This document shows positions 35,677-61,431 of a stretch of DNA of 64,000 nucleotides, one piece after another. A program made the position numbers and the translations under genes. Within the stretch, counting starts at the first letter, position 1, and each line of letters opens with the position of its first letter. Origin of the DNA: Nitrososphaera sp. GTDB lineage: Archaea > Thermoproteota > Nitrososphaeria > Nitrososphaerales > Nitrososphaeraceae. A model generated the notes under the pieces. The model was not told the DNA's origin, did not search any database, and saw only the letters and a list, made by a program, of their open reading frames with translations. Location: positions 1 to 64,000 of the forward strand of contig JAJUFP010000007.1 in NCBI GenBank assembly GCA_029263715.1, written 5' to 3'.

Positions 35677-36438
35677 ATGAGCGTACTGGCTGAAATGAAC
35701 GCCCGCCAATTAAGGGAGGCTGTAAAGGACGACACCGTCGCAGTCCTTGTCTTTGGCGCGTGCGAAAATCATGGCGATCACATGCCCTTTGGCGCTGACT
35801 TTATCATGCCCTTTGAGCTGGCCAAGAGGGTTGCCAGAAAACACCAGAACTTGATTGTGCTGCCGCCCATGCCGTACGGCGTCAGCTCGCACCACCGGGA
35901 TTTCCAGATGACCATGACTCTGGAACCAGAAACCATGGTTGCAGTAATACGCGATATCCTCCAAAGCCTGGCGGACAACAGGATACGCCATATCCTGATA
36001 ATAAACGGCCATGACGGAAACATTGCTCCTATAGAGCTGGCGGCAAGAACCGTCAAGGAAAAGAATCCTGACGTTGTGATATGCTGCCTTGAATCATGGT
36101 GGGTATTGATAGGCTCGCTGGCCCCGGGGCTTTTCAGCGTGTGGAGCGGCCTTGGGCATGGCGGTGAGGCCGAGACATCGGCCATGCTGGCTCTCCGGCC
36201 CGATCTCGTGGATATGAAGTTGGCCCCAGAGCCGGTGGTCCCAAGACTGCCAGAAAACGTAAGGATATACTGGAAGTTTAGCGAGTTGACTGATACTGGA
36301 GCCACCGGCGCTCCAAGAGAAGCGACTGCCCAAAAAGGAGAAAAGATAGCCGAGATCCTGGAAAATGTCTTGATAGATTTTCTGCAAGAGATGGACAGAA
36401 ATGACTGGAAGTATGGAAAAGAAATGAAAGGGGCTTAG
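35677..36438 (+). CDS. Creatininase/MftE family amidohydrolase
   Basis: VAVLVFGACENHGDHMPFGADFIMPFELAKRVA; NGHDGNI; GHGGEAETSAMLALRPDLVD. Confidence 0.9.
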   Translation: MSVLAEMNARQLREAVKDDTVAVLVFGACENHGDHMPFGADFIMPFELAKRVARKHQNLIVLPPMPYGVSSHHRDFQMTMTLEPETMVAVIRDILQSLADNRIRHILIINGHDGNIAPIELAARTVKEKNPDVVICCLESWWVLIGSLAPGLFSVWSGLGHGGEAETSAMLALRPDLVDMKLAPEPVVPRLPENVRIYWKFSELTDTGATGAPREATAQKGEKIAEILENVLIDFLQEMDRNDWKYGKEMKGA

Positions 36439-41995: not shown

Positions 41996-43345
41996 TCACT
42001 GGCTTGACTCCCCTTTTTTGTCTTGCAACGGTTCAACAAGCAATGTGTCGCCTTGCTTTCCAATTATCTTTACCTTCTGGCCTTTGTTGATGTCCTGCCC
42101 AACACTCTTGGCTTTCCAGTACTCTCCACCCACAAACACAAATCCAGGCTTGCCTCCCACAATGGGATCAAGGGCAGTCCCTTCCTCGCTTTGGTATGCA
42201 AACTGCAAAGGTTTTCTCTTCTTTGCCTGCCATGCCTTGTATGTTAAAAAGCCAAAGAATGCGCCAAAGGGGACCGTCGTCAGCGTTGATAACAATGCAA
42301 GGTTTCCAAGGTGCTGTTCAGTGGTCAAGACCGGCTCCACCGGCTGCGTTATCATCAGCGAAGAGCCTATGGAAAGAACGATAATCCCGCCGATCCCTAT
42401 GGCCCCAAAACCCGGGGTGTAAAGCTCGTAGGCGACAAGCCCCACCCCTATTGCCAGCAGGGCAAAGGCGGCCCAGTTTATGTCAAATCCCTGGCCGGCA
42501 AGGCTGAGGATTATCAGAGTTGCACCGGCTATCTCGCCTCCAAAGCCCGGACTGGCAAGTCCGTAAATGAGGGCAAAAAAGCCTACTGTAAGAAACGTGG
42601 TGGCAAGAAGTGGGTTGGCCAGCACGCTGACAAGCAGGACCCGCAGGCTTGGCTCATGCCTTTCAATCTCTGCACCTGCGGTATCCAGAACCTTGGGGCC
42701 CTTTAGCGTCATCACGGTGGCGTTGTGAGCCTTTTGCAGCAGATCTTCAGGATCGCTTGCTATGGCCTCTATGACGTTTTGGCGCAGCGCGTTTTCTGGA
42801 GTCAGGTTGTCGTTATGGGTGATAAACCGGGCAGCCTGAGTTGCATTTCTGCCGTGCAGTTCTGCCAGTGAGACTACCTTTTCCGTAAGCGCATTTACTA
42901 TCTTGGTGTCATCGACCGGCACGCCGCCGGCTACCGGCTGGGCAGAACCGATGGTAGTGACCGGTGCCATGGCCGCATAGTCCGATGCCATAAGAATTAT
43001 CGTCCCGGCAGACCATGCGCTTTTCCCTGAAGGGTAGACGTAGCCTATAACCGGAACATCTGATTGCTGCATGCTTGTGATGATGTCAAGGGTCGCATCC
43101 ACCGATCCTCCGGGGGTATCCAGCGCCAAAATGATTGCTGAATGCCCGGACGCGCGCTCCACAGCCGAGGCGACGTGTTCTGAGGTTGCCGACGATATGA
43201 AATCTTTGACATCGACCCAGAGCACCTTTTTGTTCTCTGACTGGCTGGAAGCTGTGCCAGGAAATACTGCAAGAATCGTAAAGAAGACAGAGGCTGCAAA
43301 CAAAACATGTCTGAACTTGGATTGGCCCGATAAACTAGTCATCAT
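41996..43345 (-). CDS. NfeD-family membrane-bound ClpP-class serine protease
   Basis: ILALDTPGGSVDATLDIITSMQQSDVPVIGYVYPSGKSAWSAGTIILMASDYAAMAP; C-terminal NfeD OB-fold. Confidence 0.92.
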   Translation of the reverse strand: MMTSLSGQSKFRHVLFAASVFFTILAVFPGTASSQSENKKVLWVDVKDFISSATSEHVASAVERASGHSAIILALDTPGGSVDATLDIITSMQQSDVPVIGYVYPSGKSAWSAGTIILMASDYAAMAPVTTIGSAQPVAGGVPVDDTKIVNALTEKVVSLAELHGRNATQAARFITHNDNLTPENALRQNVIEAIASDPEDLLQKAHNATVMTLKGPKVLDTAGAEIERHEPSLRVLLVSVLANPLLATTFLTVGFFALIYGLASPGFGGEIAGATLIILSLAGQGFDINWAAFALLAIGVGLVAYELYTPGFGAIGIGGIIVLSIGSSLMITQPVEPVLTTEQHLGNLALLSTLTTVPFGAFFGFLTYKAWQAKKRKPLQFAYQSEEGTALDPIVGGKPGFVFVGGEYWKAKSVGQDINKGQKVKIIGKQGDTLLVEPLQDKKGESSQ

Positions 43346-43354
43346 CCGCCCCCG

Positions 43355-44284
43355 TCATTGCGCTTCTGTTTCCCGCCCCGTGTCTTTTGGCTCTTCTTGC
43401 TTTTTCTTTTCTCTCTTACTCTCGACCACGCTAAAGATCTCTTGTCTGGCTATTTCCCTTATCTGATTCTCGTCGAGATGCGGAACCGCCGGCGTCCTTT
43501 CCTTGACGATCCCAAGCAGGGTTCCAAGTTCCGTCGAGTCACCGCCGGTTACAACGATCATGTTCTTCTCCCTGGCGATCTCTGTCCATGTCTGCAGTTC
43601 TCGCAGCCGCATGGCGGCCATGTTCCTGACGTAAAAGTCTGCGGCCTGCGCCATCTTCTCGGCAGCCGTCAGCTCGCCTTCTGCTATTATTATCCGGCCC
43701 CTCTTTTCCCGCTCTGCTTCAGCCTGTTTGGCTATGGCCCTGTGCATGTTTTCTGGAAGCGAGACATCCCTTAACGCAACGGAGCTTACCTTCACGCCCC
43801 AGGGGTCGGTGGCAGCGTCCAGGACTTCCTGCATCCTTTTGTTTATCTCCTCTCTTTTTGAGAGTATGTCGTCAAAATTCGTCTGCCCTATGAGGTCCCT
43901 TAAGGTGGTCTGGGACAGCAGGCTTGACGCAACAAGGTAGTTGTTTACCTTGACGACCGCGTTGTTTGGGTCATTTACCCGAAGGTAAACTACAGCATCA
44001 ACATCCACAGTAACGTTGTCAAGGGTGATTATCTTTTGCTTGGGGACATCCAGGGTAACAACGCGCAGGTCGACCTTTACGGCCCTGTCTATGAAGGGAA
44101 CAAGTATTATCAGGCCAGGGCCCTTGGCACCAATCAGCCGGCCCAGCCTGAAGACAACCGCCCTTTCATACTCTCTTATGATTCTAATCGAAGAGGCGAT
44201 TATTACAAGAATCACGATCACCACTATTGCCACTCCAAAAATCTCGGCTAGCCCCAGTTGCAAGAGAATGTTAGAGGTTTCCAC
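43355..44284 (-). CDS. Stomatin/slipin-like SPFH protein
   Basis: IIREYERAVVFRLGRLIGAKGPGLIILVPFIDRAVKVDLRVVTLDVPKQKIITLDNVTVDVDAVVYLRV. Confidence 0.93.
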   Translation of the reverse strand: METSNILLQLGLAEIFGVAIVVIVILVIIASSIRIIREYERAVVFRLGRLIGAKGPGLIILVPFIDRAVKVDLRVVTLDVPKQKIITLDNVTVDVDAVVYLRVNDPNNAVVKVNNYLVASSLLSQTTLRDLIGQTNFDDILSKREEINKRMQEVLDAATDPWGVKVSSVALRDVSLPENMHRAIAKQAEAEREKRGRIIIAEGELTAAEKMAQAADFYVRNMAAMRLRELQTWTEIAREKNMIVVTGGDSTELGTLLGIVKERTPAVPHLDENQIREIARQEIFSVVESKREKKKQEEPKDTGRETEAQ

Positions 44285-44472
44285 GATATGTATTGGCTAT
44301 TTGAATATTTAACATTGAATCTCGTAGACTTGCGAAATAATGATTTTAATTGATTAAACGGTGTAAAGATTATATCTTCAACGCATTTAGAATCTATTAT
44401 TCTTACTCACCAGAGAGCCTTGCAAAGCGGATGAATCAACTTGCGGCAACATCAAAAAATTAAGGGGTTTGG

Positions 44473-44784
44473 TCAGCTAGTTTTTGGCTTTTCTTTTGCC
44501 GCTGTTTCGGAACTTTCCTTTTTTTTAACATCGGTTGTATCGGCAGCAGTACCGTTTGCTTTGATGGCCTTTATGGCCTCGATGCACGCTGCCTTGATGT
44601 CCTCATAAGCAGTTACGCTCAGGATCTCCTCCAGGGAGGGGATCGCTTCTTCGCCGCGGGATGACAATTCTCTGATGGCCGTCTTCTTTTCTTCAGCATT
44701 GTCTGACCACTTGGCTGCTACTTTCAGCTCATAGAATGTCTTGGCGTTAGACAATTTTCGATCGACCCATACTATAATGGGCAA
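44473..44784 (-). CDS. Small HEAT-like helical protein
   Basis: KKTAIRELSSRGEEAIPSLEEILSVTAYEDIKAACIEAIKAIKA. TTG start proposed because the longer ORF is antisense to the next gene. Confidence 0.5.
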   Translation of the reverse strand: MPIIVWVDRKLSNAKTFYELKVAAKWSDNAEEKKTAIRELSSRGEEAIPSLEEILSVTAYEDIKAACIEAIKAIKANGTAADTTDVKKKESSETAAKEKPKTS

Positions 44785-44872
44785 AGTAGTATTTATTGAA
44801 GCTGCTAAAAATGCAGATGTATATCGTCCAAATGTTTGAATTAAAAAAGAAAGGGAGGGATACTGGTGACTT

Positions 44873-45349
44873 TTACCAGTGGCGGAAATGACCTTCGCCC
44901 CAGTGGCCGAATCCCTTGCCGTATCCGTGCTTGAAGCCTCCGTGCATGAAGCCTTCTCCAAGCTGGAACTCGTCTGAGGCGTGCAGCACGCTTCCATTTC
45001 CTGCGTCGATTATTACCATCTTGCCGGTGTCGGTGTCTGTATTGACCACAAAGAATGTGTACACCAGGTATCCTTGCACTACGCCAAGGTGTCCGCTTAC
45101 TACCTTGCCATCGGTTACCTGTTGCTGGGCAGTTTCAGCAGCCGCGGTAAATGAGACCTTTAGGTTTTCGTCAATAAAGTTGCTCATCTGCTCCCTTACG
45201 TTTACCGAGCCGTTGATCTGCGGCATTCCGTTCTGCATGTCTGCCTGCTGCGCGCTTACTGATGCTACTGTTGCCAGCGAAAGCAGGCCGGCGGCAGCGA
45301 TGACAGCGGCTATCACCAGTCTTTTGTTGGTGAAGTTAGGCTTTACCAC
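44873..45349 (-). CDS. Exported PepSY-like small protein with Gly/His-rich tail
   Basis: Signal peptide; VSGHLGVVQGYLVYTFFVVNTDTDTGKMVIIDAGNGSVL (PepSY-like); tail GGFKHGYGKGFGHWGEGHFRHW. Confidence 0.7.
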   Translation of the reverse strand: MVKPNFTNKRLVIAAVIAAAGLLSLATVASVSAQQADMQNGMPQINGSVNVREQMSNFIDENLKVSFTAAAETAQQQVTDGKVVSGHLGVVQGYLVYTFFVVNTDTDTGKMVIIDAGNGSVLHASDEFQLGEGFMHGGFKHGYGKGFGHWGEGHFRHW

Positions 45350-45528
45350 AGGTATGATGACGATGAAAATTATATTAACCGTTGTTGACTATTGATAGGT
45401 AACAAAGTTACCTGAGAATTTCCCTGCAAGACCTTTGTCAGCATCTCAAATTCACTGGTAACATGATTTTCAGTTGTTCTTCTAAATCTACTACAATGAT
45501 GCGAGTGTAGATTTCTTGTCTGGCCGCG

Positions 45529-45762
45529 TCATTTCGTCACCATCATGGTCTGGGTGGCCTTGATCTTTTCAATTCTCCTAACGCGCCGGCTGATGATGTC
45601 CCTCAAACCACTCTCTGTGTCCGCTTTTATCTTTATAATTATGTCAAAGGTGGAGCCGTAGATCTGGCTGGCCTCCTGAACGCCGGATAGAGTGCGAAGC
45701 TCGTCGATGACGGCATGATCGCATCCCGGCTCGCAGCTGATAAGGACGTAAGCTGTCGGCAT
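45529..45762 (-). CDS. Lrp/AsnC ligand-binding (RAM) domain protein
   Basis: MPTAYVLISCEPGCDHAVIDELRTLSGVQEASQIYGSTFDIIIKIKADTESGLRDIISRRVRRIEKIKATQTMMV. Confidence 0.88.
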   Translation of the reverse strand: MPTAYVLISCEPGCDHAVIDELRTLSGVQEASQIYGSTFDIIIKIKADTESGLRDIISRRVRRIEKIKATQTMMVTK

Positions 45763-45769
45763 TTACCGG

Positions 45770-46078
45770 TCACGCTCCCTCTTTAGGCTGGAACGTTTTC
45801 TGCCACAAAGATTCTATTTCATTTGCCAGCGCAAAATCGCGCTCTGTGATTCGCTGAACGTCAAAGGATATGGAGGATATCTTGACCGTCCTCCAGATTA
45901 TGGTGATGACTGGGTGGTGGTCGCGCTCTTCGGCCACCTTTGCAACCTCGTTTACAAAATCCACGGCCTGCCTGAAGGCAGAAAAGCTAAAAGTCTTGAC
46001 TATCTTGCCGTCTTTTAAGCTCCACTGGCTGTCCAGCTGGCTTAGCCTTTCTGCTACCTCTTCATCGGATAATAGCAT
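45770..46078 (-). CDS. 4a-hydroxytetrahydrobiopterin dehydratase (pterin-4a-carbinolamine dehydratase)
   Basis: MLLSDEEVAERLSQLDSQWSLKDGKIVKTFSFSAFRQAVDFVNEVAKVAEERDHHPVITIIWRTVKISSISFD. Confidence 0.85.
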   Translation of the reverse strand: MLLSDEEVAERLSQLDSQWSLKDGKIVKTFSFSAFRQAVDFVNEVAKVAEERDHHPVITIIWRTVKISSISFDVQRITERDFALANEIESLWQKTFQPKEGA

Positions 46079-46503
46079 CAGCCTATAATATGCAGGGGGA
46101 ATAATTAAGCAGTCCTTTTCTCGACCAACCCTGAAAGCAGCAGCCAAAGTCTGAAATTCGGTTGGATATGGATTTGTGCAGCAGGTTTCCGCACCTCTGA
46201 CGTCTTTTAAAAAGCTACGAATTTCTTAAATATTAGAACGTGGATAATATGGCAGGGAAAAAATCGCAACCCAGCACAGGTGGTGATTTTCCGATCAGCG
46301 TTGGAGATCAAGTAAAGGCTTGGTCTGTCAAAGAGTCGGAAAACGTTGACGCACACCATCAAGCAGAGTGACCTGCTAATAACAGATCACGAAGTCATGG
46401 ACGCGTCAATGCGGGCCAACTAAGATAGTGAAGGGCCTAACTGCTCGTGAACACTAGGCGAGAAAGCCACATCATCGCTGAAATGTTGCGACTTTTCCTC
46501 TTT

Positions 46504-46704
46504 TTAATCTCCTGAAGCAATAATCTCTTGCCAGCATGGCGGGCAGATGGATGTGTCGTCAACCAGCTTTTGCTCAAAGGTGCGCTCCGACGGTCTGAAG
46601 GTGGCGGCGCAGATGACGCACGACAGGACTGCCGCGGCCTTTTCTTCTGTCTTTGGCAGGTTCTTGCCCTGATGCCGCCTCTTTAGATGCTGCCTGCTAG
46701 CCAT
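46504..46704 (-). CDS. Small zinc-binding protein
   Basis: CVICAATF...CPPCW. Confidence 0.5.
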   Translation of the reverse strand: MASRQHLKRRHQGKNLPKTEEKAAAVLSCVICAATFRPSERTFEQKLVDDTSICPPCWQEIIASGD

Positions 46705-46746
46705 TGACTGTATTTCTCAATCCGCCATTAAAAACTAGCTGGTGTG

Positions 46747-47043
46747 CTAGAGCTTGTCCAGCCTTCTGTTGACCGAGTCGAGGTTCTGTTCCAGGAATCT
46801 CTTGTACGCCAGGAGCAGCTTTTTCTGCTCGGCCTTTGTCACGTCGTCTATCCTGTCCAGCATGTATTCCATTTCCCGCGAAATGTTGCTGATGTGATCG
46901 TCAAGGGCAATTCTCTCTTCAATTGCCCCTGGTATGGAGTGTATCAGCTCCTTTACGGTCTCGGCCGCCTGCCTGGTCTTTGCAGAAATCTTTTCAAAGT
47001 CTTTTTTCTCGTCGGAATCCGTATCTTTCTTTCGCGCGGTCAT
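46747..47043 (-). CDS. Hypothetical helical protein
   Basis: 98-aa charged ORF. Confidence 0.55.
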   Translation of the reverse strand: MTARKKDTDSDEKKDFEKISAKTRQAAETVKELIHSIPGAIEERIALDDHISNISREMEYMLDRIDDVTKAEQKKLLLAYKRFLEQNLDSVNRRLDKL

Positions 47044-47332
47044 GCAATAAAATTAGTTGGTGGTTGCTAATTAATTTTTGAGCCGGTAATAAATTGCCTG
47101 TGTGGATGGAATAACCTCCATGCAAGTAGGGATCTTTTGAAAACGATTCCAAACTCTTGATATATAAGGTGGTAGACGATGTTGAAACAACCATGCTGTG
47201 GTGCAAAGAAAAGCTGGAATAGGCGTATCTAGCGTTTATTCTACAATTAGGCGTCGGCTAACTCATCAATGTCAACAAAAGTAAACATTTTTTCGTTGAC
47301 GTTTGTTTATCTCGAACTGGTTGTATAATTAA

Positions 47333-48101: not shown

Positions 48102-50903
48102 ATGGTAAAACGATGGACGTTATTAGCTGCGGCGGTCCTAGTCGGGTTTGCCTTCAGTCTGACCACGACCATCTTCTTGCAGTCCGGGTCTTTTGTTGCA
48201 TCCCTCGGTCTTCCGGCCGGTTCTGTGCAGCAGGCAGAAGCTGCCACTGTTTCCTTGACCCATAGTCTGGCAGCATTCAATTCCGCCGCCGGCTCTCCAC
48301 CTGTAGCAATTACCTTTGATGGTATGAATAGCGGAACAAATATCGGCGGTCAAAACATGTTGGGCGTAACATTTACGCAGATCGGCGCGCCGCTGGTAGT
48401 CGTTCGTAAATCCGAGACCTTTACGCCCACGGCGGAGTTCGATCCGGTAGACCACGACGTAGTTACATGCAGGTTGAAGTCTACCACCACGGGAAATGTG
48501 CTGTCTCCGGGAGGCGCAGAGCTGGGTGCGGGGCCCGACCCTCGTGTGGAGAATGATGACTTGCAGCTGACTTTTGACTCTCCAGTTAATGCAGTGGGTT
48601 TCGATATCATCTATCAGCTAGCCGATGGCTCGTCTTCTACATCCATCACGGTCAAGGATGTCGACGGAAGGACGCTTTTCGACCAGGAAATCACCGCGCC
48701 TGCGACCGGGTGCGGTCGTAGTCAGTTCATAGGATTGGTCTCAGGCAGCAACAACATCAAAACCATCATCGTAAACGAGCAGGATGATGACGCAGAAGAT
48801 ATCAACTCAAACATTGGATACGACACAATCCGCCTCAAATTCAAATTCGACCTCGATGTTGATACAGATCGGGACGGGGAGGTTGATGATGTTGATGATG
48901 AGGAAGATGAAGAAAAATGGTCCAAAACTCGCGGGGCAATCTATATGGTCAATTTCGACGACGATGACGGAAATGGAATCCCGGATGGAGGGAAATTCAT
49001 TGGGAAATTCATTGTTAAGGATGGCATGACTGAAGATGAGGAGAGCAGAATAATAAAGAATGAAGATGATGCAAAAGACATCTCGCAAATTGTATTCCGA
49101 ACGGTAATAGATGAAACCGCCGCAAGTGACAATAGGTTGGAGGTGTTCCTGAGGGCGGTTGGCTCTGACCCCTTAAATGATCTCCAGTCGGTGCACATTT
49201 TCGATGGCACTGGAGCTGGTTCGTTGGAAATTGCAAATAATTTCAGTGGTCCGGATGCAAGTGAAATAGAAGTCGAAATCACTGAAATATTAAAAAAAGG
49301 AGATACATCGTTCGGAATAGAGGGACTGCGTTTCAAGTTCACCGATGAATCTGCCTTTGCTCGCTTTGATGGTGAAATTGACTTGGAAGTTGTCGTAAAG
49401 AGGGATGACAAAGAATTGGCGACGGATAAGGTAAAGCTAAAGGTCGCACCCTTTATTCTGCTACCAAATAATCGGCCTTTCAAGGAAGTGTGGGAAAACG
49501 GGACAGGAAATCTGATACCAAATTCAAAGCATCATGATGAAATCGATCCACGCGATAAAGACCAGTGGACACAAGACATGATAGAGGTGGGCTATACGCA
49601 GGCACCGGGAAAGGAAAAGCACTTCGTTGTCCTGAGGTTATTGCATCACTCAGTTGTACGAGTTCATGAATGGCCTGTGAAAGGACTACTTGAAAGTGGT
49701 ACAGGCGTATTTAACCTAATTTCAGATCCTGATATGGAAAATAGTGGCGATTATGGCGGCAACATAGAAGTAATGCCTCCGACGAAAGACTGGCCGTTAG
49801 GCCGGATTGTTGTGGGCAACACCATTAGCCCCGAGCTTCTGAAGTTCTTCCAAGACCAGGAGGTGCAGATGCCCCTTGACATAGACAATTTCGATACGAG
49901 CTGGCTTGCAGTAGGACATGTGGATGAAATGATTAGTTTTGTTGGAGACGGCGATAGCTGGTCCGTGGTGGCAGCAGACACAGCCCTCGCCCTTAGCCTG
50001 TTAGAGCCGTTGCCTGAAGATGCGGTATTCTTTGCTGTCGGCGATACTACCGCAGGGATGAGCTTGAAGGCTGAAGGCGGCGACAAGAATAAGCTCATTG
50101 ATAATAATGTAGATTTCACAAGCCCCGAGTTTAAAGACAAGGATTTCAAGTATTTGCGAATTTATGAGGGCAAGGGAGCGGGTCAGGTCGCAAGGATCTT
50201 ATTTTTTACCAAAAATGAGATAATGATAACTGGAGTATTCCAGACCCCTACCAAAGTGGTAATGGGTCCCGCCGGATCTGATAAACCTGATTTTGCCACC
50301 TGCGTTGCTGACTGTATTGTGGAGAAGCCCATAAGAGTGAGTTACGGCTGGATTGACGAGCCGGATGGAACAAGTAAATACGTCTTGGTTTCAGACGCAA
50401 AGCGCTGGTTAACCAAGGTGACTGGGATCGATAGTAATACGCTTAGAGGAAAAGGGGTTCCTGCCATTATAACAGTAAAGGAAGTACTGGACGATGAGGT
50501 CTTTAAAGATCGTAACGAAGCAGCCCAAAAGCATATAGAAGATGCAGTCGAAGCTATCCTTGACGCAGCGGATCCCGATCCCACCATTATTAGGGTGCCA
50601 GACCTATACATGTGGTTTTTAGTCAAAGGTGTTCCTTATGGAGTTGCATTCGTTCCATCGCTGGTGAATCTTCAGCAAGTTGGCGACAAATTCTACTTCC
50701 CAGAAGGCTTTGGTCCCACTAATAAAGACGGAAAGGAGATATTCGAAGAGGAGGCAAGGAAGAATATGCCGGGTTCGAATGAAATATTCGTAGATGACTG
50801 GGATCTGTTCCACAGATGGATGGGAGAAGTGCACTGCGGATCATACGTAATACACGAGGCCTTCGACTTTAAGTGGTGGGAGAAGTTGCCTGAGTCACCG
50901 TAG
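48102..50903 (+). CDS. Exported protein with PAD_M- and PAD_C-like domains (protein-arginine deiminase family)
   Basis: Signal peptide; middle segment DVDTDRDGEVDD...KTRGAIYMVNFDDDD...AKDISQIVFRT; catalytic segments DQWTQDMIEVGYTQAPGK, GGNIEVMPPTKDWPLGRIVVGN, WLAVGHVDEMISFVGDG, GEVHCGSYVIHEAFDFKWWEKLP. Confidence 0.9.
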   Translation: MVKRWTLLAAAVLVGFAFSLTTTIFLQSGSFVASLGLPAGSVQQAEAATVSLTHSLAAFNSAAGSPPVAITFDGMNSGTNIGGQNMLGVTFTQIGAPLVVVRKSETFTPTAEFDPVDHDVVTCRLKSTTTGNVLSPGGAELGAGPDPRVENDDLQLTFDSPVNAVGFDIIYQLADGSSSTSITVKDVDGRTLFDQEITAPATGCGRSQFIGLVSGSNNIKTIIVNEQDDDAEDINSNIGYDTIRLKFKFDLDVDTDRDGEVDDVDDEEDEEKWSKTRGAIYMVNFDDDDGNGIPDGGKFIGKFIVKDGMTEDEESRIIKNEDDAKDISQIVFRTVIDETAASDNRLEVFLRAVGSDPLNDLQSVHIFDGTGAGSLEIANNFSGPDASEIEVEITEILKKGDTSFGIEGLRFKFTDESAFARFDGEIDLEVVVKRDDKELATDKVKLKVAPFILLPNNRPFKEVWENGTGNLIPNSKHHDEIDPRDKDQWTQDMIEVGYTQAPGKEKHFVVLRLLHHSVVRVHEWPVKGLLESGTGVFNLISDPDMENSGDYGGNIEVMPPTKDWPLGRIVVGNTISPELLKFFQDQEVQMPLDIDNFDTSWLAVGHVDEMISFVGDGDSWSVVAADTALALSLLEPLPEDAVFFAVGDTTAGMSLKAEGGDKNKLIDNNVDFTSPEFKDKDFKYLRIYEGKGAGQVARILFFTKNEIMITGVFQTPTKVVMGPAGSDKPDFATCVADCIVEKPIRVSYGWIDEPDGTSKYVLVSDAKRWLTKVTGIDSNTLRGKGVPAIITVKEVLDDEVFKDRNEAAQKHIEDAVEAILDAADPDPTIIRVPDLYMWFLVKGVPYGVAFVPSLVNLQQVGDKFYFPEGFGPTNKDGKEIFEEEARKNMPGSNEIFVDDWDLFHRWMGEVHCGSYVIHEAFDFKWWEKLPESP

Positions 50904-51312: not shown

Positions 51313-51789
51313 TCAGATCTTGCCGGCTTCCTTTAGCCGGAGCTCCATGCGCCTTTCTCCTTCCCTAAAACGCGCCTTTTCCTCCTCTGTCTGCACTAAA
51401 AGCGGCGGCACTTCGGTGGGCTTGCCGTACTTGTCCAGGGCAACCATGGTGACAAAGGCCGTCCCAGTCCTCACCCTGGTTCCGTCGTCAAGGTCTTCTG
51501 ACTCGACGGTGACTTCGACTTCCATCGAAGACCGCCGGACATAGTTGAGCCTTGCCGAGAGGATAAGGGCGTTGCCGATAAAGACCGGCTTAAGAAACGT
51601 CATCCTATCGATGCTGGCCGTCACCGCGTTGGCGTGCCCGGCATGCCTCTTGGCCACCAGGCCAGCTATGAGGTCCACGTGCTTGAGTATGACTCCGCCA
51701 AACACATTTCCCTTGGGGTTGGCGTCTGATGGAAGCATGATGACTGTCATCTCTGCCTTGGATTCCTCTGGACTTTTGGCCTTCTTCAA
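51313..51789 (-). CDS. Hotdog-fold acyl-CoA thioesterase (YciA/BACH type)
   Basis: MLPSDANPKGNVFGGVILKHVDLIAGLVAKRHAGHANAVTASIDRMTFLKPVFIGNALILSARLNYVRRSSMEVEVTVESED. Confidence 0.9.
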   Translation of the reverse strand: MKKAKSPEESKAEMTVIMLPSDANPKGNVFGGVILKHVDLIAGLVAKRHAGHANAVTASIDRMTFLKPVFIGNALILSARLNYVRRSSMEVEVTVESEDLDDGTRVRTGTAFVTMVALDKYGKPTEVPPLLVQTEEEKARFREGERRMELRLKEAGKI

Positions 51790-51812
51790 CCTGACTAAGC
51801 CAGTGTCTGCTG

Positions 51813-52850
51813 TTATAAAGCGTTTACCAGCCGCGTCATCTTTTCCAAGGTGACTTCAAAGCCAAAACGCTTCTCCTCTCTCTTCATGTTGCGGTACATG
51901 CTGAGAAGCAGGTTTGCATGCCTTACCGTGCTCAGCTTGCCGTCCATCTTTAGCCTGACGATCCTGTAGACGTCGTCGTAGTAGTTGAACCGGTCAAGCA
52001 CCTTCTTTCTGTATTTCTTGAAATCAAACTTGCTTTGGTCAAGGGCTTCAAGGAAGATGTCGCAGCATATCAGGGTAGGAATGATCCCCTCTCCAAGCAT
52101 CGGAAAGACGCAGCCGATGGACTCGCCGACACCGATTATGTTGCCGTCGTAAAACGGCTCCATCTTTTTTGGCGGTGCAAGCCGAATCGGCCGGCCAATC
52201 TTTTTGACTACCTTGGCTTCGGGGTGGTTCTGGAAGAACTCGCTGATGCCCTGGTATCTCTTTTCGACGTCGCCGGCACCCATGTATCCCCGGCCGTTGT
52301 CCAGCGGAAAGTACCAAAAATACCCCTTCGCGCCCTTGTAGCCGATGACGTAGAACTCGTCCATTCCCCGGACGTTTTCCAGCAGGTACTCGTAAGCAGG
52401 TATGATAAAGTCGTTCTCAGACCGGGGTAAAAGCGTGCGGTGAAGCCCCGTGCAGTCAAGCACGTAATCATAGTCGCCAAACGGAAATGATTCTTTTGTA
52501 ACCTTGACGCCGTAGTTTATCTTGACTCCCTGCATCAGGTCGTGCTCCCACTTGTGTTTGTTGTACGTCACAAGCCCTACAAGGTCAAGGTACTCCACGT
52601 TGTCGTTTGGAAGGTCCATCTTGAGCCGCTGGCCCACATGGAAGATATAGTCATCAAATTTCAAGCCGGCCTTTTCAGAAAACTTGGACAGCATGTGCCG
52701 CGAGGCGCCCCATGCGCACACCGGCCAGTGGTTCTCCGGTTTTGAGGCCTCGAAGATCTCGACTTCGTGGCCCCGTTTTTGAAGCATGTTGCCCAGATAA
52801 CTACCTGCGACGCCGGCGCCGGCGATGGCGAATTTCATGCCCCAATTCAA
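51813..52850 (-). CDS. FAD-dependent oxidoreductase, geranylgeranyl reductase family
   Basis: GxGxxG FAD motif (IAGAGVAGSYLGNMLQKRGHEVEIFEA), GRGYMGAGDVEK, GNIIGVGESIGCVFPMLGEGIIPTLICCD. Confidence 0.85.
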   Translation of the reverse strand: MNWGMKFAIAGAGVAGSYLGNMLQKRGHEVEIFEASKPENHWPVCAWGASRHMLSKFSEKAGLKFDDYIFHVGQRLKMDLPNDNVEYLDLVGLVTYNKHKWEHDLMQGVKINYGVKVTKESFPFGDYDYVLDCTGLHRTLLPRSENDFIIPAYEYLLENVRGMDEFYVIGYKGAKGYFWYFPLDNGRGYMGAGDVEKRYQGISEFFQNHPEAKVVKKIGRPIRLAPPKKMEPFYDGNIIGVGESIGCVFPMLGEGIIPTLICCDIFLEALDQSKFDFKKYRKKVLDRFNYYDDVYRIVRLKMDGKLSTVRHANLLLSMYRNMKREEKRFGFEVTLEKMTRLVNAL

Positions 52851-53328: not shown

Positions 53329-53925
53329 TTGCTTGATTTGAAATACAAAATCAAGGGAAAGGTAAAGAACGAGCAGGGAAATCCTGTTTCCGGTCTCTTT
53401 GTAGAGGCTTTTGATAGTGACTTGACGGCAGACGATTATCTTGGAAGCACGCTAACAAATTCTGAAGGCGAGTTTGAGATCGAGTTTGACGACAAGGTAT
53501 TCCACGAGACCTTCGAGCTTTTGGAAAGGAGGCCCGATGTGTACGTGGTTGTAAGAGACGCTTATCGAGTATTGCACAAGACTGACGTCCGTAGTGAGGC
53601 CAAAGATGAAGAGTTTTTCGATATCGTGGTAAAGGACACAAGGCCCTTTGATGACCCGTACGCCAATTCCTTCCAAAGAACAGTGGCTTCCTTTAATGAG
53701 ATAGGAGACACTGTCGATATTTCCCAGGCTGACCTGCAGAGGCTCATCACGCAGATGATTAGAGGCCTGGCCAGCTGGTCATACTACACAAGACCAAAGG
53801 TCATGCAATCGGTGGGATACCCCGGGCCACAGGTGCCCCAGTACCCAAAGCGCACACCACATGAGCACTCGCTTCCCTGGAATCCGCACGAGCATGATGA
53901 GCACGAGCACGGCGAGGAGGAGTGA
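53329..53925 (+). CDS. Carboxypeptidase-regulatory/transthyretin-like protein with His-rich tail
   Basis: IKGKVKNEQGNPVSGLFVEAFDSDLTADDYLGSTLTNSEGEFEIEF; tail HEHSLPWNPHEHDEHEHGEEE. Overlaps the GMC gene start. Confidence 0.75.
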   Translation: MLDLKYKIKGKVKNEQGNPVSGLFVEAFDSDLTADDYLGSTLTNSEGEFEIEFDDKVFHETFELLERRPDVYVVVRDAYRVLHKTDVRSEAKDEEFFDIVVKDTRPFDDPYANSFQRTVASFNEIGDTVDISQADLQRLITQMIRGLASWSYYTRPKVMQSVGYPGPQVPQYPKRTPHEHSLPWNPHEHDEHEHGEEE

Positions 53926-56441
53926 TGGTTGTGCCTGGAACAATCTTTGGTCTAGAAAACATCGAGAAGAGGAAGGAAAAGTACTCCCTGGTCACCCATG
54001 ACATTGTTGAAAACGCGGATGTCTGCGTTATTGGCTCCGGTGCTGCCGGCGCCATTATAGCCTGCAAATTAGCCGAGCAGGGAAGATCCGTTGTTTTGCT
54101 GGAAAAAGGCGGATACTATGATTCTGAAGACATGAATCAAAGGGAAGTCGACATGATCCCCCTTCTCTGGAAGAACGGGGGAGCCATCTTTTCTGACAAC
54201 CTGAGGATGGTCATAGTTCAGGGCCAGTGCTTGGGCGGTACTACAGTAATCAACGACGCTGTCTGCTTCAAGACTCCGCCCATAATCCGGGAGCATTGGA
54301 GATCCATGGGAGTCAACATCCCAGATGAGCGGTGGGAGGCAGCCCTTGACGAGGTGTGGAACGGCGTTCATGTAAGCCGGGTCCGGCCAGAAGAACTAAA
54401 CGAGAACAACCTGATGCTCAAAAAGGCATGCGCGATTAAAGGCTACAAGGCAAGTGAGAACGACAGAAACAGTGTAGACTGCATGAGGTGCGGCTTTTGC
54501 CACCTTGGATGCCATTATGAAACAAGGCAGGACATGCTGATAACCTACATCCACCGGGCTTTGCAAAACTCGGAGATCAAGATGTACTGCAACTGCGCGG
54601 TAGAAAGAATATCCCATTCTGACGGCCTCGTTGACGGAGTTGAAGGTGATTTCATTGACAGCGCTGGAACAACAAAGTTCAAGATCCGGGTAAACGCAAA
54701 GGCCGTTGTGGTTTCGGCCGGCGCCATCGCCTCTTCCCTGTTGCTGATGAAAAACAAGATCGCGCTGGGCAAAGCCGGCCGGGGGCTGAGCTTTCATCCG
54801 GCAGTCCACCTGCTTGGCAAGTTTGATCAAGAGATCAACGCTTACAATGGCATTCCCATGGCGTACACCTGTCATGAGTTTGGAGTGACAAACGGGGTAA
54901 AGGACAACAGTTTTCTTATCGAGAGCATCTTTCTTCCCATATTCCAGTTTTCAATGGGCCTTCCCTCGTTTCTTGCAGAGCATGCTGAGCTGATGAAAGA
55001 CTTTACCCACTATGCCATGGCCGGGGTTCTTGTAAAAGACGATCCAAACGGCACCGTGACTCTGACTGAAACCGGCCGGGCAAAAATCCACCACGCCCTG
55101 TCGCCAAATGACATCAAGACTGTGGCAAGGGGGCTGGCCACCCTGGCAGAGCTGTGGTTTGATGTCGGCGCAAACGAGGTCATAACCGAGCATGCCGACA
55201 TCACGAGGCTAAAGAGCATCGACGACATCCCAAGACTCGTGCACGCCGTTGAAACAAACCCGGACGCCCTTAACCTGGCATCGGCGCATCCTCAGGGTGG
55301 AAACAGGATGGGCGACGATATCGATCAGTGTGTCGTGGACTCGCACTGCCAGGTTCATGGCTTTCAAAACCTCTTTGTGTGTGATGCCAGCGTATTTCCA
55401 ACTTCAGTTGGCGTCAACCCCCAGATCACGGTGATGGCAATTGCTGCCATGGCAGCCGACCACATCAATTCTGTCTGGGATGCGCAGTTTTCCGGCCTGG
55501 GCGTAAAGCCGGCCCTTGGCGAGACGTGCTCCATTGCCCAGCCCATGTTCTGCACGGCTGAGAGGCTGGACACGATGTTCCGGCAGTCAGCAAACAAACT
55601 GCCGGTAGAGACCCTGGTCAATGCAGACGAGAATTCGCCTCCTGAAGAAAGGTGGCACTTTGACAAAGAAAGTTTGATGATCTACAACAACAAATACTGG
55701 AAAGGCTTCTTCCCCCTAGACCAGGACTTTACCCTTGTAAGGTACCTGGGAGGCTTTTGGAAGCGCTTCCACAAGCAGGGAGATGAAGTAAGAGGCATAA
55801 CTCACCCCTTTGAGACCAGCATAGACGCGCCCAACATAGCTGAGCTAAAAGCATTTGAGGGTTTTGGCGAGCTTGTCCACCTAAAGTACACCAGCCCCGA
55901 GTTCTCTATATTCTACGACCTTCTCAAAATAGTCGACAAGGACGTGGTGCTGGGAAAGGCTTTCTTTGGCCTGCCTCCCTTTGGCAACCACATCCTTGAC
56001 TTTTGCATGTCCAGGAATTACTCCGTTGATTTCATGACAGAGGATGACCATGAAACCATCTATCAACAGGCGCGTTCGCCGGCAGCCGGCGAGGTTTTGG
56101 GAAGGTGGACTGGAAGGCTGGTTTCAGACAGCGCACTGACGCCGGTAACGCAGGTCTTTACATACACACAGGACAACATTGGAAAATTGCAGATGGAGTA
56201 CCTCTTTGGCGGGTTGCTGAGGGGGATCTCAAGAATCACTCTGACACCGCAACAGATGAACATGTACGACTTTACCAGCTGGCATGACGAAGTAAAGATT
56301 GTTACCAGCGACTTTATGGTCGGCAAGTGGTGCTCTCCATGGACAAAGATCTCGCTGAACTTTGGCCCCAGCTTCCTAAGCGTTGAAACAGGTCCAGATG
56401 GAAACAGGTTCAGCCTGCGATTTACCTTGAGACGGGTCTAG
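53922..56441 (+). CDS. GMC-family FAD oxidoreductase with long C-terminal extension
   Basis: CVIGSGAAGAIIACKLAEQGRSVVLLEKGGYY; CxxCxxxC motif SVDCMRCGFCHLGCHYETRQ; ASAHPQGGNRMGDD...VCDASVFPTSVGVNPQITVMAIAAMAADHI. Confidence 0.88.
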   Translation: MMVVPGTIFGLENIEKRKEKYSLVTHDIVENADVCVIGSGAAGAIIACKLAEQGRSVVLLEKGGYYDSEDMNQREVDMIPLLWKNGGAIFSDNLRMVIVQGQCLGGTTVINDAVCFKTPPIIREHWRSMGVNIPDERWEAALDEVWNGVHVSRVRPEELNENNLMLKKACAIKGYKASENDRNSVDCMRCGFCHLGCHYETRQDMLITYIHRALQNSEIKMYCNCAVERISHSDGLVDGVEGDFIDSAGTTKFKIRVNAKAVVVSAGAIASSLLLMKNKIALGKAGRGLSFHPAVHLLGKFDQEINAYNGIPMAYTCHEFGVTNGVKDNSFLIESIFLPIFQFSMGLPSFLAEHAELMKDFTHYAMAGVLVKDDPNGTVTLTETGRAKIHHALSPNDIKTVARGLATLAELWFDVGANEVITEHADITRLKSIDDIPRLVHAVETNPDALNLASAHPQGGNRMGDDIDQCVVDSHCQVHGFQNLFVCDASVFPTSVGVNPQITVMAIAAMAADHINSVWDAQFSGLGVKPALGETCSIAQPMFCTAERLDTMFRQSANKLPVETLVNADENSPPEERWHFDKESLMIYNNKYWKGFFPLDQDFTLVRYLGGFWKRFHKQGDEVRGITHPFETSIDAPNIAELKAFEGFGELVHLKYTSPEFSIFYDLLKIVDKDVVLGKAFFGLPPFGNHILDFCMSRNYSVDFMTEDDHETIYQQARSPAAGEVLGRWTGRLVSDSALTPVTQVFTYTQDNIGKLQMEYLFGGLLRGISRITLTPQQMNMYDFTSWHDEVKIVTSDFMVGKWCSPWTKISLNFGPSFLSVETGPDGNRFSLRFTLRRV

Positions 56442-56694: not shown

Positions 56695-57534
56695 CTACCC
56701 TTGATGGGATTTCTTGGATTCTTCACGGGTGACAGAAAACATGCCGTGCTGCTTTTCAATGCCGGAGCGCACCTTCTCGATGACGTTGTTCATGGCCTTC
56801 TCAGCCACCTTAAAGTTCTCGGCTGTCACCACCACCCTGTACCGCGGCGCCCCGATGTACGTGACCTCGGTCTTGGTGCTGCCCTTGCTGCTTTCTACCC
56901 CCGACATGATGTTTTTTATCATCTCGATGCCTTCTGGCTTTTTGGAAGTTATCTCCATGACGACTCGGACCTCGACGTGGGGGATCTGGATCTTGCTGCT
57001 CTCGTCTTCGATGGCCTTTTTGATCTCGTCGGGGATCTCGATCTTTTGCAGGACATCCGGGCCCTTTCTGGCCACATCCTCAAAGATGTCGTACACATAG
57101 TCGTACTTTTGCAGGATCTTGTCCTCTATTTCTGAGACCTGCTTGGGGTTCAGGTTCAGCTTGGCCTTGATGAGGTCCATAAAGGCCGTTGCCTTTTCGT
57201 TTTTCTTTACCTCTATCAGCTTGGACTTGCGCTCCTCGCCGGAGACCTGCTTTAAAGAGCAGTCGACCTCGCCCCTGGTCTTGTTGACGCGGATGACTTT
57301 GAGCACTGCCTTCTGCTTGGGCTTGACGTACCGCTCGATGTTGCGGATCCAGCCGGTGGCAATCTCAGATATGTGCAGAAAGCCGGTCATGCCGTTGTAC
57401 TCGTCCAAGATAACGTATGCGCCGTGCCCGGTGACTTCCCTGACGGTGGCTATAACAATCTCGCCTTCTTCTGGAAGTTTCTGGGTTTCTTCGGCAGCGG
57501 ACATTTGCGGTAGGGTAGACGATGCAAATGGCAT
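56695..57534 (-). CDS. Translation initiation factor aIF2 subunit alpha
   Basis: LPEEGEIVIATVREVTGHGAYVILDEYNGMTGFLHISEIATGWIRNIERYVKPKQKAVLKVIRVNKTRGEVDCSLKQVS. Confidence 0.95.
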   Translation of the reverse strand: MPFASSTLPQMSAAEETQKLPEEGEIVIATVREVTGHGAYVILDEYNGMTGFLHISEIATGWIRNIERYVKPKQKAVLKVIRVNKTRGEVDCSLKQVSGEERKSKLIEVKKNEKATAFMDLIKAKLNLNPKQVSEIEDKILQKYDYVYDIFEDVARKGPDVLQKIEIPDEIKKAIEDESSKIQIPHVEVRVVMEITSKKPEGIEMIKNIMSGVESSKGSTKTEVTYIGAPRYRVVVTAENFKVAEKAMNNVIEKVRSGIEKQHGMFSVTREESKKSHQG

Positions 57535-57557
57535 ACTTTAAGGTTGCCTTTTAGCCG

Positions 57558-58097
57558 TCAGTAGTCTATGCCTTTTTTGGCCTTTATTCCCAGCTTGTAG
57601 GGGTGCTTTATTTCCTTCATCTCTGTAACAAGGTCGGCGGCCTCTATCACCCTGTCATCAGCATAGTTGCCGGTGAGTATGAGGGTGGTCTTGTCCGGCT
57701 TGGACGCAATGACGTCTAGGATGTCCTGCACCGATATCAGTTTTAATTTTGCAGCATAGTTGATCTCGTCAAGCACCATGACATCGTACGCTTCTGTGAC
57801 CAGCTTTTCTTTTGCCAGCAGGATGGCGTGCCTGGCGGCGTTTTGATGTTCTTCTATTTTGTGGTCGTCGTCGATGATGCCCACAAAGCCCTTTCCTGCG
57901 GCAATCATCTCAAACTCGGGCTCAAGCCTCTTGGAGCTGGTCATCTCGCCGTAGTACCACTCGCCCTTGATGAACTGGATCATGCCCACCTTGTAGCCGT
58001 GGCCGACGGCCCGAAGCACCACTCCTAGTGCCGCGGTGGTCTTGCCCTTTCCCTTGCCGGTGTAGACTATGACCAGGCCCCTGTCAGAAGGCATCAA
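57558..58097 (-). CDS. Cob(I)yrinic acid a,c-diamide adenosyltransferase (CobA/CobO type)
   Basis: LVIVYTGKGKGKTTAALGVVLRAVGHGYKVGMIQFIKGEWYYGE...VMVLDEINYAAKLKLI. Confidence 0.94.
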   Translation of the reverse strand: MMPSDRGLVIVYTGKGKGKTTAALGVVLRAVGHGYKVGMIQFIKGEWYYGEMTSSKRLEPEFEMIAAGKGFVGIIDDDHKIEEHQNAARHAILLAKEKLVTEAYDVMVLDEINYAAKLKLISVQDILDVIASKPDKTTLILTGNYADDRVIEAADLVTEMKEIKHPYKLGIKAKKGIDY

Positions 58098-58164
58098 CTG
58101 CTAGTCCGCGGCCGTTGGAATAAAAATCCATCTGAAGGTCGCAAATGCTGCTCCTTTTTCTTCT

Positions 58165-58566
58165 CTACTTCCATTCCCATCCCTTGATGGTCATGTTGTC
58201 TGACGCATCTATTTCTACATCGACTACCAAAACAGCATTGTTTAGGAACGCGAGCTTGCCCGTCGCGTTTGCGTTAAAGAGGGCGCATCCTCTGTAACTG
58301 ATTGCCCCCTGTCCTGTAGAGCGGCCGATGCCTTTGGGGTTTGCCGATGCCATATCGCCTTCAGGAGTCGTTAACACAGCTTTAACCTCTCCATACATTG
58401 CGCCGCCCGGTCTCATTGTACTTGAAAAAGTGCCCATCTCCATGACCTCTATACCCTTTATTTTTCCCTGTGTCGAATAAGTCCCTTCAATAGTTGGCCC
58501 CTCGGTGTCTAGAACCCTCTTTCCAATGACTTTGCCCTTTGCTTCGTAGACGAGATCACCTAACAT
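58165..58566 (-). CDS. Hypothetical protein
   Basis: 133-aa ORF: MLGDLVYEAKGKVIGKRVLDTEGPTIEGTYSTQGKIKGIEVMEMGTF. Confidence 0.7.
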   Translation of the reverse strand: MLGDLVYEAKGKVIGKRVLDTEGPTIEGTYSTQGKIKGIEVMEMGTFSSTMRPGGAMYGEVKAVLTTPEGDMASANPKGIGRSTGQGAISYRGCALFNANATGKLAFLNNAVLVVDVEIDASDNMTIKGWEWK

Positions 58567-58626
58567 ATTCAGAAAGCATGCGGTTTTTTATTTAAGCATT
58601 TGATCTGCAAGGTAAGTTAATAAAAA

Positions 58627-60018
58627 ATGCCGAGGCAGACAAGCATGTTGTCTGGCATCCCAAGAATCGTCATTGCCGGCGTGACCAGCGGTGTTGGCAA
58701 GACCACCGTCTCCACTGCCGTCATGCACGGCCTTTGCAAGAAGGGCCTGCAAGTGCAGCCCTTCAAGGTTGGCCCGGACTTTATCGACCCGTCGTACCAC
58801 ACTGTTGTGACAGGCCGACAGTCTAGGAACCTGGATGTCTGGCTGATGAAACGGCAAGGCGTTTTGGACTGCTTTTTGAATTCCTGTGCCGATGCAGACG
58901 TTGCCGTCATCGAGGGCGTGATGGGGCTTTTTGACGGCATGTCCGGCAAGGACAACTATGCCAGCACGGCCCATGTGGCCGGGATCCTAGATGCTCCGGT
59001 GATACTCGTAGTTGACGCATCCAAGAGCGCGCGGTCCATAGCAGCCATTGTGCTTGGATTTCTGCGCTTTGATAAAAGCATCAGGATAGCCGGGATCATA
59101 CTAAACAACGTGGCCGGCGACCGTCATGCCGGCTACATCACCGACGCGCTGAATGGTAGGATAAAGGTGCCAGTAGTAGGGGTAATCCGGCGAAACAAAG
59201 AGATTCGGATGGAAGAGCGGCACCTTGGGCTTGTGCCTGCGTATGAACTGCAGCAGGAAAAACAGAGGGCAATAGTTGATGCTGCAAAAATCATCTCTGA
59301 GCAAATAGACATCGACGCGGTACAAGGATTGTGCGGAAAAAACCCGCTGAAAGCAAAACCTGCAAAGATCAGGCCAGCAAGGCTTGCAGCAAGGCTGGCC
59401 GTTGCCCTTGACGAATCCTTTAACTTTTACTACGCAGACAACCTGGATGCGCTGCGGGCCTGCGGCGCGCAGCTGACGTTCTTTAGCCCGGTAAACGACA
59501 AGCGCCTGCCAGAAAACATCGACGGCCTAATCCTTGGCGGCGGCTTTCCAGAAGTTCTTGCCGATCGGCTTGAGAAGAACCGGTCCATGATAAACTCGAT
59601 CTCAAAGGCCGCCAATTCGGGTCTTCCAGTTTACGGCGAGTGCGGCGGGCTGATGTACCTGACACGCTCAATAAGCGGGTACCGGGGCGACAAAAAGGCC
59701 AGAAGGATGGTGGGGCTGATAGACGCAGACACAAAGATGACTTCCCGGCTGACCTTGAACTACACCGAGGCAGGCTGCGAGGCGCCCATGTTTGGCAGGA
59801 CAAACCTGCACGGCCATGAATTCCATTACTCTGAAATTGAGAATATCGCCCATGATAGCCGGTTTGCATACACCCTGAAAAAGGGCAACGGGATAACCGA
59901 CGGCAAGGACGGCCTCTTGGTGGGAAACTGTCTTGCCGCATACATGCACCTGCACTTTGCCGACAGAAAACTTGCCCGGAGGCTGGCTGAGTTCTGTGTC
60001 AGGCAATCACGGCGCTGA
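58627..60018 (+). CDS. cbiA: Cobyrinate a,c-diamide synthase
   Basis: IAGVTSGVGKTTVSTAVMHGLCKKGLQVQPFKVGPDFIDPSYH; C-terminal class-I glutaminase segment GLPVYGECGGLMYLTRSI. Confidence 0.95.
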   Translation: MPRQTSMLSGIPRIVIAGVTSGVGKTTVSTAVMHGLCKKGLQVQPFKVGPDFIDPSYHTVVTGRQSRNLDVWLMKRQGVLDCFLNSCADADVAVIEGVMGLFDGMSGKDNYASTAHVAGILDAPVILVVDASKSARSIAAIVLGFLRFDKSIRIAGIILNNVAGDRHAGYITDALNGRIKVPVVGVIRRNKEIRMEERHLGLVPAYELQQEKQRAIVDAAKIISEQIDIDAVQGLCGKNPLKAKPAKIRPARLAARLAVALDESFNFYYADNLDALRACGAQLTFFSPVNDKRLPENIDGLILGGGFPEVLADRLEKNRSMINSISKAANSGLPVYGECGGLMYLTRSISGYRGDKKARRMVGLIDADTKMTSRLTLNYTEAGCEAPMFGRTNLHGHEFHYSEIENIAHDSRFAYTLKKGNGITDGKDGLLVGNCLAAYMHLHFADRKLARRLAEFCVRQSRR

Positions 60019-61431
60019 CCGGCTTTTGTACAGAAGCAGTATGGCGTTTATTATGGACGATGCAGCAGGGCTGCCGCCCTTTCGCCCGACGTTTGTTATG
60101 AAAGGTATGTCTGTCTTGGCCAGTTCTTCTTTTGACTCTGGTGCCGATACAAAGCCCACCGGTATGCCTACCACCAGGGCCGGTTTTGTCACCCCCTCCC
60201 TTACCATCTTGATTACCTCGTAAAGCGCGGTGGGCGCGTTTCCGATGACCACTATGCCGCCATCCATCTCTTTGGCTGCCCGGCGCATGGCCAGCTCTGA
60301 GCGGGTCATGTCCGTTTTTCTGGACTGCTCTGCAATCTTTGGGTCAGAGATATGGCAAAAGACGTCAAGTCCGAGCTCTGCGAGCAGTTTTTTGTTTATT
60401 GCTGCTGCAACCATGTCGACGTCTGTCACGATGTTGCATCGGTTCTTGATGGCGTTAAAGACAGACTCTATGGCCCGGTCATGGAACAGGATCCTGCCGG
60501 CACCGGCAAAGTCAAAGTCTGCAGTTGCATGTATCACGCGGCGGACTATCGGCCACTGCATCTCGCTGTAGCTGTGCGGTCCGACCTCCGCGTCTATCAT
60601 CTCAAAGCTCTTCTTCTCGATATCAAAGGCCCGCACAGCCATGGACCGGCTTGCTGCCGTCCCGCTGCTGTTGTCCGGCCTTGTCCTTTTCTCGACTTCA
60701 GAAGCACGCCCGATTATCAGATCGGCAAGTATCTCGTCGACGCCAAGATGCCTGGCCATGAAGGCGTTTTTGTAGCAATGCTTTTCCAAGGATGCGCTGA
60801 TCTCGATGGCAACATCTTTTTTGATGTGCGCGCCCTTGTGCAAAAAGTAGGGCATCACAAGAAGCGCCTTTGGATCTCTGGAAAGGGCCGCGCTTATGCC
60901 TTCTTCGATGCTTGGCTTGTCCAGCTCAAGGAAGCAGAACGTGACGTTTCTATAAAACGGCTTGATGGTATCTGTGAGGTGCACAAAGGCGTCGTGCGCG
61001 TTCTTGTCGCTGCTTCCATGTCCAATCACCAGGACATCGCACTCGCTGTCCGGATGCTGGATCCTGTTTTCCTTCTTTAGCAAAGTCAGCCGGTCAAAAA
61101 CAAGCCGCGTCAGGTCTGGATGGTAGCTGAGCGGCCTTGTTATCGAGATTCTCAGTTTCCTGTCCCGGCCTATGGCCGCGCTCTTTTTCACAGCATCTTT
61201 GAGCTTCATGCCGGGATACAGAAAATAAGGCATCACGGTTATCGTGTCCGCGCCGCTGGATACGCAGCGGCTTATGCCTTCCTCTATGTACGGCGGCAGA
61301 ACCTCTAAAAAGCAATAGTCAGCAAAATCGTAGCCGGCCTTTTGCTTGGCCATGGCGCAGAGCTGCTGCATCTCGTCTCGGACTTCTGTCTCTCTGCTGC
61401 CCCTGTCGATTATCAGTAGCGCCCTTTTCAA
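60007..61431 (-). CDS. Fusion of two CbiX-like domains and precorrin-8X/cobalt-precorrin-8 methylmutase (CbiC/CobH)
   Basis: CbiX repeat 1 (ALLIIDRGSRETEV...VMPYFLYPGMKLKDAV), repeat 2 (VLVIGHGSSDKNAHD...VMPYFLHKGAHIKKDV), then CbiC (RRVIHATADFDFAGAGRILFHDRAIESV...CHISDPKIAEQSRKTDMTRSELAMRRAAKEMDGGIVVIGNAPTALYEVIKMV). Confidence 0.93.
   Translation of the reverse strand: MKRALLIIDRGSRETEVRDEMQQLCAMAKQKAGYDFADYCFLEVLPPYIEEGISRCVSSGADTITVMPYFLYPGMKLKDAVKKSAAIGRDRKLRISITRPLSYHPDLTRLVFDRLTLLKKENRIQHPDSECDVLVIGHGSSDKNAHDAFVHLTDTIKPFYRNVTFCFLELDKPSIEEGISAALSRDPKALLVMPYFLHKGAHIKKDVAIEISASLEKHCYKNAFMARHLGVDEILADLIIGRASEVEKRTRPDNSSGTAASRSMAVRAFDIEKKSFEMIDAEVGPHSYSEMQWPIVRRVIHATADFDFAGAGRILFHDRAIESVFNAIKNRCNIVTDVDMVAAAINKKLLAELGLDVFCHISDPKIAEQSRKTDMTRSELAMRRAAKEMDGGIVVIGNAPTALYEVIKMVREGVTKPALVVGIPVGFVSAPESKEELAKTDIPFITNVGRKGGSPAASSIINAILLLYKSRSAP

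Follow-up and report, generated by a model that had tools for sequence, protein, structure and literature searches.

The closest described systems to the protein reported here are the human protein-arginine deiminases PAD1-4 and the microbial PADs surveyed by Cummings et al. 2021 (PMC8826395), which was the one broad PAD survey that our literature searches returned. In this survey, a PAD_N domain, a second calcium site (Ca2) and a D389 switch are traits of the animal and late-cyanobacterial proteins (Clade Ai), and Ca2 and the switch are absent from the fungal and actinobacterial PADs. It also met a single archaeal PAD, from Methanophagales, which was dismissed as a misattribution, and archaea were excluded. 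We found no report on archaeal citrullination or thaumarchaeal PADs in the literature after this survey. Regarding calcium control, loss of N373 (N373A) abolishes the activity of human PAD4 (PMC11402830), and activity is reported for fungal PADs, with El-Sayed 2019 cited for it.

Analysing a window of 64,000 nucleotides (the whole stretch of DNA examined, from Nitrososphaera sp.), we identified a PAD gene of archaeal location (Table 1), whose reading frame contains zero internal stops over 933 codons and lies in a window with zero ambiguous bases. The earlier note on this DNA had proposed PAD membership and an HMM search as its check, and both Pfam families were recovered above their cut-offs, i.e. 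PAD (PF03068, E 4.4e-52, 177.8 bits for a cut-off of 25) and, N-terminal to it, PAD_M (PF08527, E 3.3e-7, 30.5 bits for a cut-off of 24.8), in the domain order that had been described. NCBIfam returned no match for the protein. Searched with phmmer against the PDB, the protein matched human PAD1 best (E 8.7e-32), followed by PAD3, PAD2, PAD4 and PAD6, and the family relation is therefore far beyond chance; a profile built from the window protein and 52 relatives reached PAD4 at E 4e-173.

Table 1. Features of the PAD locus and its surroundings (window positions; res, residues of the PAD protein)
Feature	Position	Strand	Basis
Left anchor: NfeD, Band_7, further short genes with Nitrososphaera matches	41996..47043	-	Comparison with congeners
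Short AAA_16 ATPase ORF 5' of the PAD gene, in the lineage-specific segment	47333..47902	+	ORF list, Pfam
TTTTATAA, putative archaeal TATA-box-like element, ~40 bp 5' of the start codon	48057..48064	+	Sequence
PAD-family gene, probably exported, 933 aa (ATG to stop)	48102..50903	+	ORF, Pfam, phmmer
Putative N-terminal export signal, res 1-48 (core res ~5-26, AEA-A)	48102..48245	+	Hydropathy, inferred
N-terminal region, res ~49-245, not PAD_N	48246..48836	+	Pfam null; AlphaFold2 low confidence
PAD_M middle domain, res ~246-438 (Ca3-5 cluster N284, D286, D288, E407)	48837..49415	+	Pfam, alignment
PAD catalytic domain, first half, res ~439-636	49416..50009	+	Pfam, alignment
Insert, res ~637-790, shared only with the Verrucomicrobia protein L008	50010..50471	+	Sequence comparison
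PAD catalytic domain, second half, res ~790-930, nucleophile C912	50466..50882	+	Alignment
Right anchor: 4HBT thioesterase and conserved reductase-like gene (no Pfam match)	51313..52850	-	Collinear in Nitrososphaera
Right anchor, continued: aIF2-alpha, CobO, CbiA, CbiX/CbiC	56695..61431	.	Collinear in Nitrososphaera

The predicted structure is consistent with this assignment. AlphaFold2 gave pLDDT values of 85-97 across most of the PAD core and did not resolve the N-terminus or the insert, the latter reaching a pLDDT of 36 when modelled alone. Foldseek against the PDB placed human PAD1 first (5hp5, E 5.8e-39), with PAD1-4 filling the top places, which points to the PAD-like alpha/beta propeller (pentein) fold anticipated by the earlier note, as judged from this overall match. 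Outside the core, the N-terminal region is probably beta-rich according to the model; residues 45-245 had no Pfam match up to E 10, PAD_N included, and this region had zero homologues in the 17 congeneric genomes. Neither this region nor the insert had relatives in Pfam or among plasmids. The insert, of ~150 aa, separates the His/Asp motif from the Cys motif, with a GHVDE-to-GEVHC spacing of 303 residues, where 87 PADs have a median of 186.

When the window protein, 52 relatives and human PAD1-4 were aligned (n=57), the catalytic quartet D350/H471/D473/C645 and W347 were identical in 57/57 sequences, corresponding here to D492, H606, D608, C912 and W489. The catalytic contexts read in the earlier note thus align with the PAD active site: WTQD at 49566-49577 (res 489-492), GHVDE at 49914-49928 (res 605-609) and GEVHCG at 50823-50840 (res 908-913), within a few bases of the positions it gave, and its flanking strings IEVGYTQAPGK, NIEVMPP, PLGRI and FDFKWWEKLP all occur in the protein. 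HMM search, fold and motif alignment, the points on which its reading was exposed to refutation, all returned PADs. The first half of the catalytic domain carries W489, Q491, D492, E495, E556, H606 and D608, of which Q491, E495 and E556 are the Ca1 ligands (Q349, E353 and E411). Within the Ca3-5 cluster, N284, D286, D288, D326 and E407 align, and D165, D168 and D176 are not reliably aligned. By contrast, Ca2 is lost (E351 replaced by M493, D369 by H516, and a gap at N373) and the D388 switch position, which also counts among the Ca3-5 positions, is occupied by G533. Two further positions, both following the nucleophilic cysteine, are also changed: N648 to Y915 (kept in 53/57 sequences) and R651 to H918 (kept in 55/57). 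The substrate-binding loop near R372/R374 is rewritten and its alignment is uncertain, with V469 and W347 kept and R374 possibly kept as R520.

The protein therefore shares with human PAD1-4 the PAD_M and PAD_C domains, the fold, the catalytic quartet, W347 and the Ca1 ligands, and differs from them by a putative signal peptide, the insert, the loss of Ca2 and D388, and a PAD_N domain that was not found. Accordingly, only part of the PADI-type reading of the earlier note stands: family and domain order hold, whereas the N-terminal region, the insert, the missing Ca2 and D388 and the N648 and R651 substitutions depart from it. These losses also weigh against the explanation favoured below, considering the inactivity of N373A human PAD4, as do the changes at N648 and R651, the rewritten substrate-binding loop and the restriction of the gene to a single genome. 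Nevertheless, fungal and actinobacterial PADs resemble the window protein in having neither Ca2 nor the D389-type switch, and since the fungal ones are reported active, activity of the window protein appears likely by analogy, if not certain. Calcium control, as read from the ligand positions, would probably differ from that of the human enzyme.

The same residues bear on two other readings. The protein could be an active pentein hydrolase of altered specificity, acting on other guanidino groups than those of intact proteins, such as small peptides, C-terminal or free arginine, or modified arginine. The quartet is intact, yet the R372 position, N648 and the backbone-gripping loop are changed in the window protein and in its closest relative, a Verrucomicrobia protein (L008), the former also differing at R651. 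On the other hand, V469, W347 and possibly R374 (R520) are kept within a whole PAD_M and PAD_C frame, whereas the known citrullinating enzymes that derive from free-arginine/agmatine deiminases have no PAD_M (PMC8826395), and we consider an altered specificity unlikely. Alternatively, the protein could be catalytically silent and serve in binding or structure at the cell surface, comparable to human PADI6, in which a PAD fold with degenerate calcium sites persists without activity; the loss of Ca2 and D388 and the unusual residues next to the nucleophile would fit such a role. PADI6, however, has lost its Ca1 ligands and its cysteine is displaced from the nucleophile position. Both features persist in the window protein, with the Ca1 ligands present and the cysteine in its GEVHCG context, which makes silence still less probable than altered specificity.

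The export claimed by the earlier note is consistent with hydropathy and a cleavage-like site: the most hydrophobic stretch of the protein is residues 5-26, preceded by MVKR and followed by an AEA-A site at residues 45-48, and no C-terminal membrane segment was found by hydropathy. Together, these sequence features suggest that the protein is probably secreted or surface-attached. In sum, the gene product is a real, archaeal and divergent PAD that is probably exported.

The host is an ammonia oxidiser, as the earlier note had supposed: its genome of 1.92 Mb encodes archaeal AmoA twice (E 3e-118 and 5e-114). On the right of the PAD gene, the anchor genes of Table 1 are collinear with congeners, most of them at 71-82% protein identity and one lower, and on the left NfeD and Band_7 show at best 76-78% DNA identity to congeners. 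The nearest left anchor is the ORF 46747-47043; the lineage-specific segment thus spans ~47.05-51.3 kb and includes the AAA_16 ORF, probably truncated judging from its shortness. By amoA, Nitrososphaera-type flanks and composition, the gene is archaeal by location. A chimeric contig, in which a bacterial PAD would have been misjoined to archaeal DNA, deserves mention considering the incomplete assembly (14 contigs, 93.6%), the presence of the gene in one genome only and the published survey, which discarded its archaeal PAD on like grounds. But the gene sits on a 152-kb contig (contig 9 of the genome), with Nitrososphaera anchors ~1.1 kb to its left and ~0.4 kb to its right, ordinary 4-mer composition (26% of same-size windows deviate more), zero ambiguous bases and a TATA-like box 5' of the gene, which makes contamination highly improbable.

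Across the genomes examined (18 for the genus, 70 for the family, 401 for the order and 400 for the phylum), only the source genome had PF03068; as the sole PAD among the 401 genomes of the order, the gene therefore looks like a lineage-specific acquisition. No signature of recent transfer was seen in 4-mers and codon use, both of which are ordinary. Upstream of the PAD gene, a ~90-bp stretch (47134-47219) is 87% identical to positions 88174-88263 of another contig of the same genome (G000:C5), a short match that accounts for nothing at the locus. A CarboxypepD_reg-like protein and a GMC oxidoreductase (53329-56441), between the reductase-like gene and aIF2-alpha, were unmatched in the aligned congener segments, and a creatininase family gene (35677-36438) may have an additional organic-nitrogen function.

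Relatives were searched in genome contigs by pattern scanning, which gave zero loci with the whole window protein and 79 PAD loci when the pattern was based on alignment with human PADs; no PAD relative was found in phages and viral contigs. Fragmented and unannotated PAD reading frames of animal/cyanobacterial-like type were observed on the Bacillus bombysepticus plasmid pBb (L004, 3060-3818). In a maximum likelihood tree, of which the deeper branches are weakly supported, the window protein is sister to L008, a 2038-aa protein from a Verrucomicrobia MAG (PSRM01000225.1; support 100/99), and the two group with PADs from Nitrosospira, Nonomuraea and Actinomadura in a set of six sequences (99/97) that lies outside the animal/cyanobacterial clade.

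The window protein and L008 share 31% identity over 841 columns, a secreted-type multidomain context and the losses of Ca2 and N648. Their inserts are homologous (E 1.9e-8; 36.6 bits, where 200 shuffles gave no more than 22.3), whereas homology of the insert was not detectable in the other PADs compared, including the long-spacing ones with inserts of their own (Nitrosospira, Nonomuraea, Thalassospira and L033). Unlike the window protein, L008 keeps an arginine at R651 and its N-terminal two thirds are composed of HYR, DUF11 and Ig-like domains, an architecture suggestive of a PAD lineage acting at surfaces. The PAD of a Nitrosospira MAG (L066, 3411-6473), another ammonia oxidiser of the same deep group, differs by several other insertions, not detectably homologous to that of the window protein. 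PADs of the actinobacterial/fungal type probably fall on a separate branch and carry a triple-histidine linker motif (...THHHL), where the window protein has APFILLPN.

This topology argues against the animal/cyanobacterial origin implied by the earlier note, i.e. a descent from a Clade A PAD. Such a descent could be defended by the linker, which resembles the APWIMTPN of this clade and is devoid of the triple histidine, and by the AU test, which tolerates the window protein as sister of the broad animal/cyanobacterial group (p 0.13). The AU test nonetheless rejected a clade uniting the window protein, human PADs and the Leptolyngbya PAD (p 8.5e-6), the grouping with Nitrosospira and Nonomuraea is well supported, and of the Clade Ai traits, PAD_N was not found by Pfam and Ca2 and the D389 switch are missing from the window protein, so that we hold a Clade A descent to be very unlikely.

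The other archaeal PADs found here belong to Methanophagales, where near-identical proteins occur in three genomes (L041, L045 and L046), one of which is taken to be the source of the record rejected in PMC8826395. In contrast with the window protein, they have Ca2-type residues (D for N at N373) and no insert, and they adjoin a transglutaminase: in L041 (QENH01000144.1, 2350-8220) the island comprises the PAD, the transglutaminase (PF20085) and a 358-aa protein, and FmdE also adjoins the PAD on one contig. The genes that flank the PAD, coding for an rRNA dimethylase and a DHOD fusion, are immediate neighbours in two Methanophagales genomes devoid of PAD (93-94% identity; G789:C36 and G790:C126), ~117 bp apart in the one that was aligned in detail. 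Given this empty site in relatives, the archaeal PAD dismissed by the survey is in all probability genuine. A common archaeal origin with the window protein was rejected (AU p 2.8e-5); the Methanophagales PADs are a second, independent archaeal PAD island, which contradicts the published verdict of misattribution.

Taken together, we consider it fairly likely that the Nitrososphaera PAD is a horizontally acquired, exported and calcium-ordered enzyme that citrullinates arginine in proteins or peptides, with mechanistic steps carried over from human PADs. Its family, fold, catalytic residues, archaeal location and distinct phylogeny are shown here, while export, calcium dependence, peptidyl-arginine as the substrate and any biological role, including the extracellular citrullination put forward in the earlier note, are inferred. 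The lineage would have gained the gene horizontally, from a bacterial donor outside the animal/cyanobacterial PAD exchange, and the protein would leave the cell via its N-terminal signal. Extracellular calcium, which is plentiful, may then order the active site through Ca1 and the Ca3-5 cluster. The guanidinium group would be held by D492 and D608 and attacked by C912 as nucleophile, with H606 as acid/base; ammonia would depart, leaving citrulline in the protein or peptide that is targeted. Placement of the enzyme at the cell surface, on the matrix or on its substrate would probably fall to the N-terminal region and the insert. By releasing ammonia from the arginine of extracellular proteins, such an enzyme might even supply the energy source of an ammonia oxidiser, a long shot in our estimation, for which the Nitrosospira PAD offers a speculative parallel; if so, citrullination would be a feeding reaction and not, or not only, a regulatory modification.

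The presence of two independent and chromosomally anchored archaeal PADs, in an ammonia oxidiser and in Methanophagales, brings the family into the third domain and reveals a movement of PAD genes wider than the cyanobacteria-to-animal story. With its own insert and its calcium-site loss, the lineage of the window protein provides a test of how much of the calcium switch activity requires. If the enzyme is active, extracellular citrullination in archaea would become testable.
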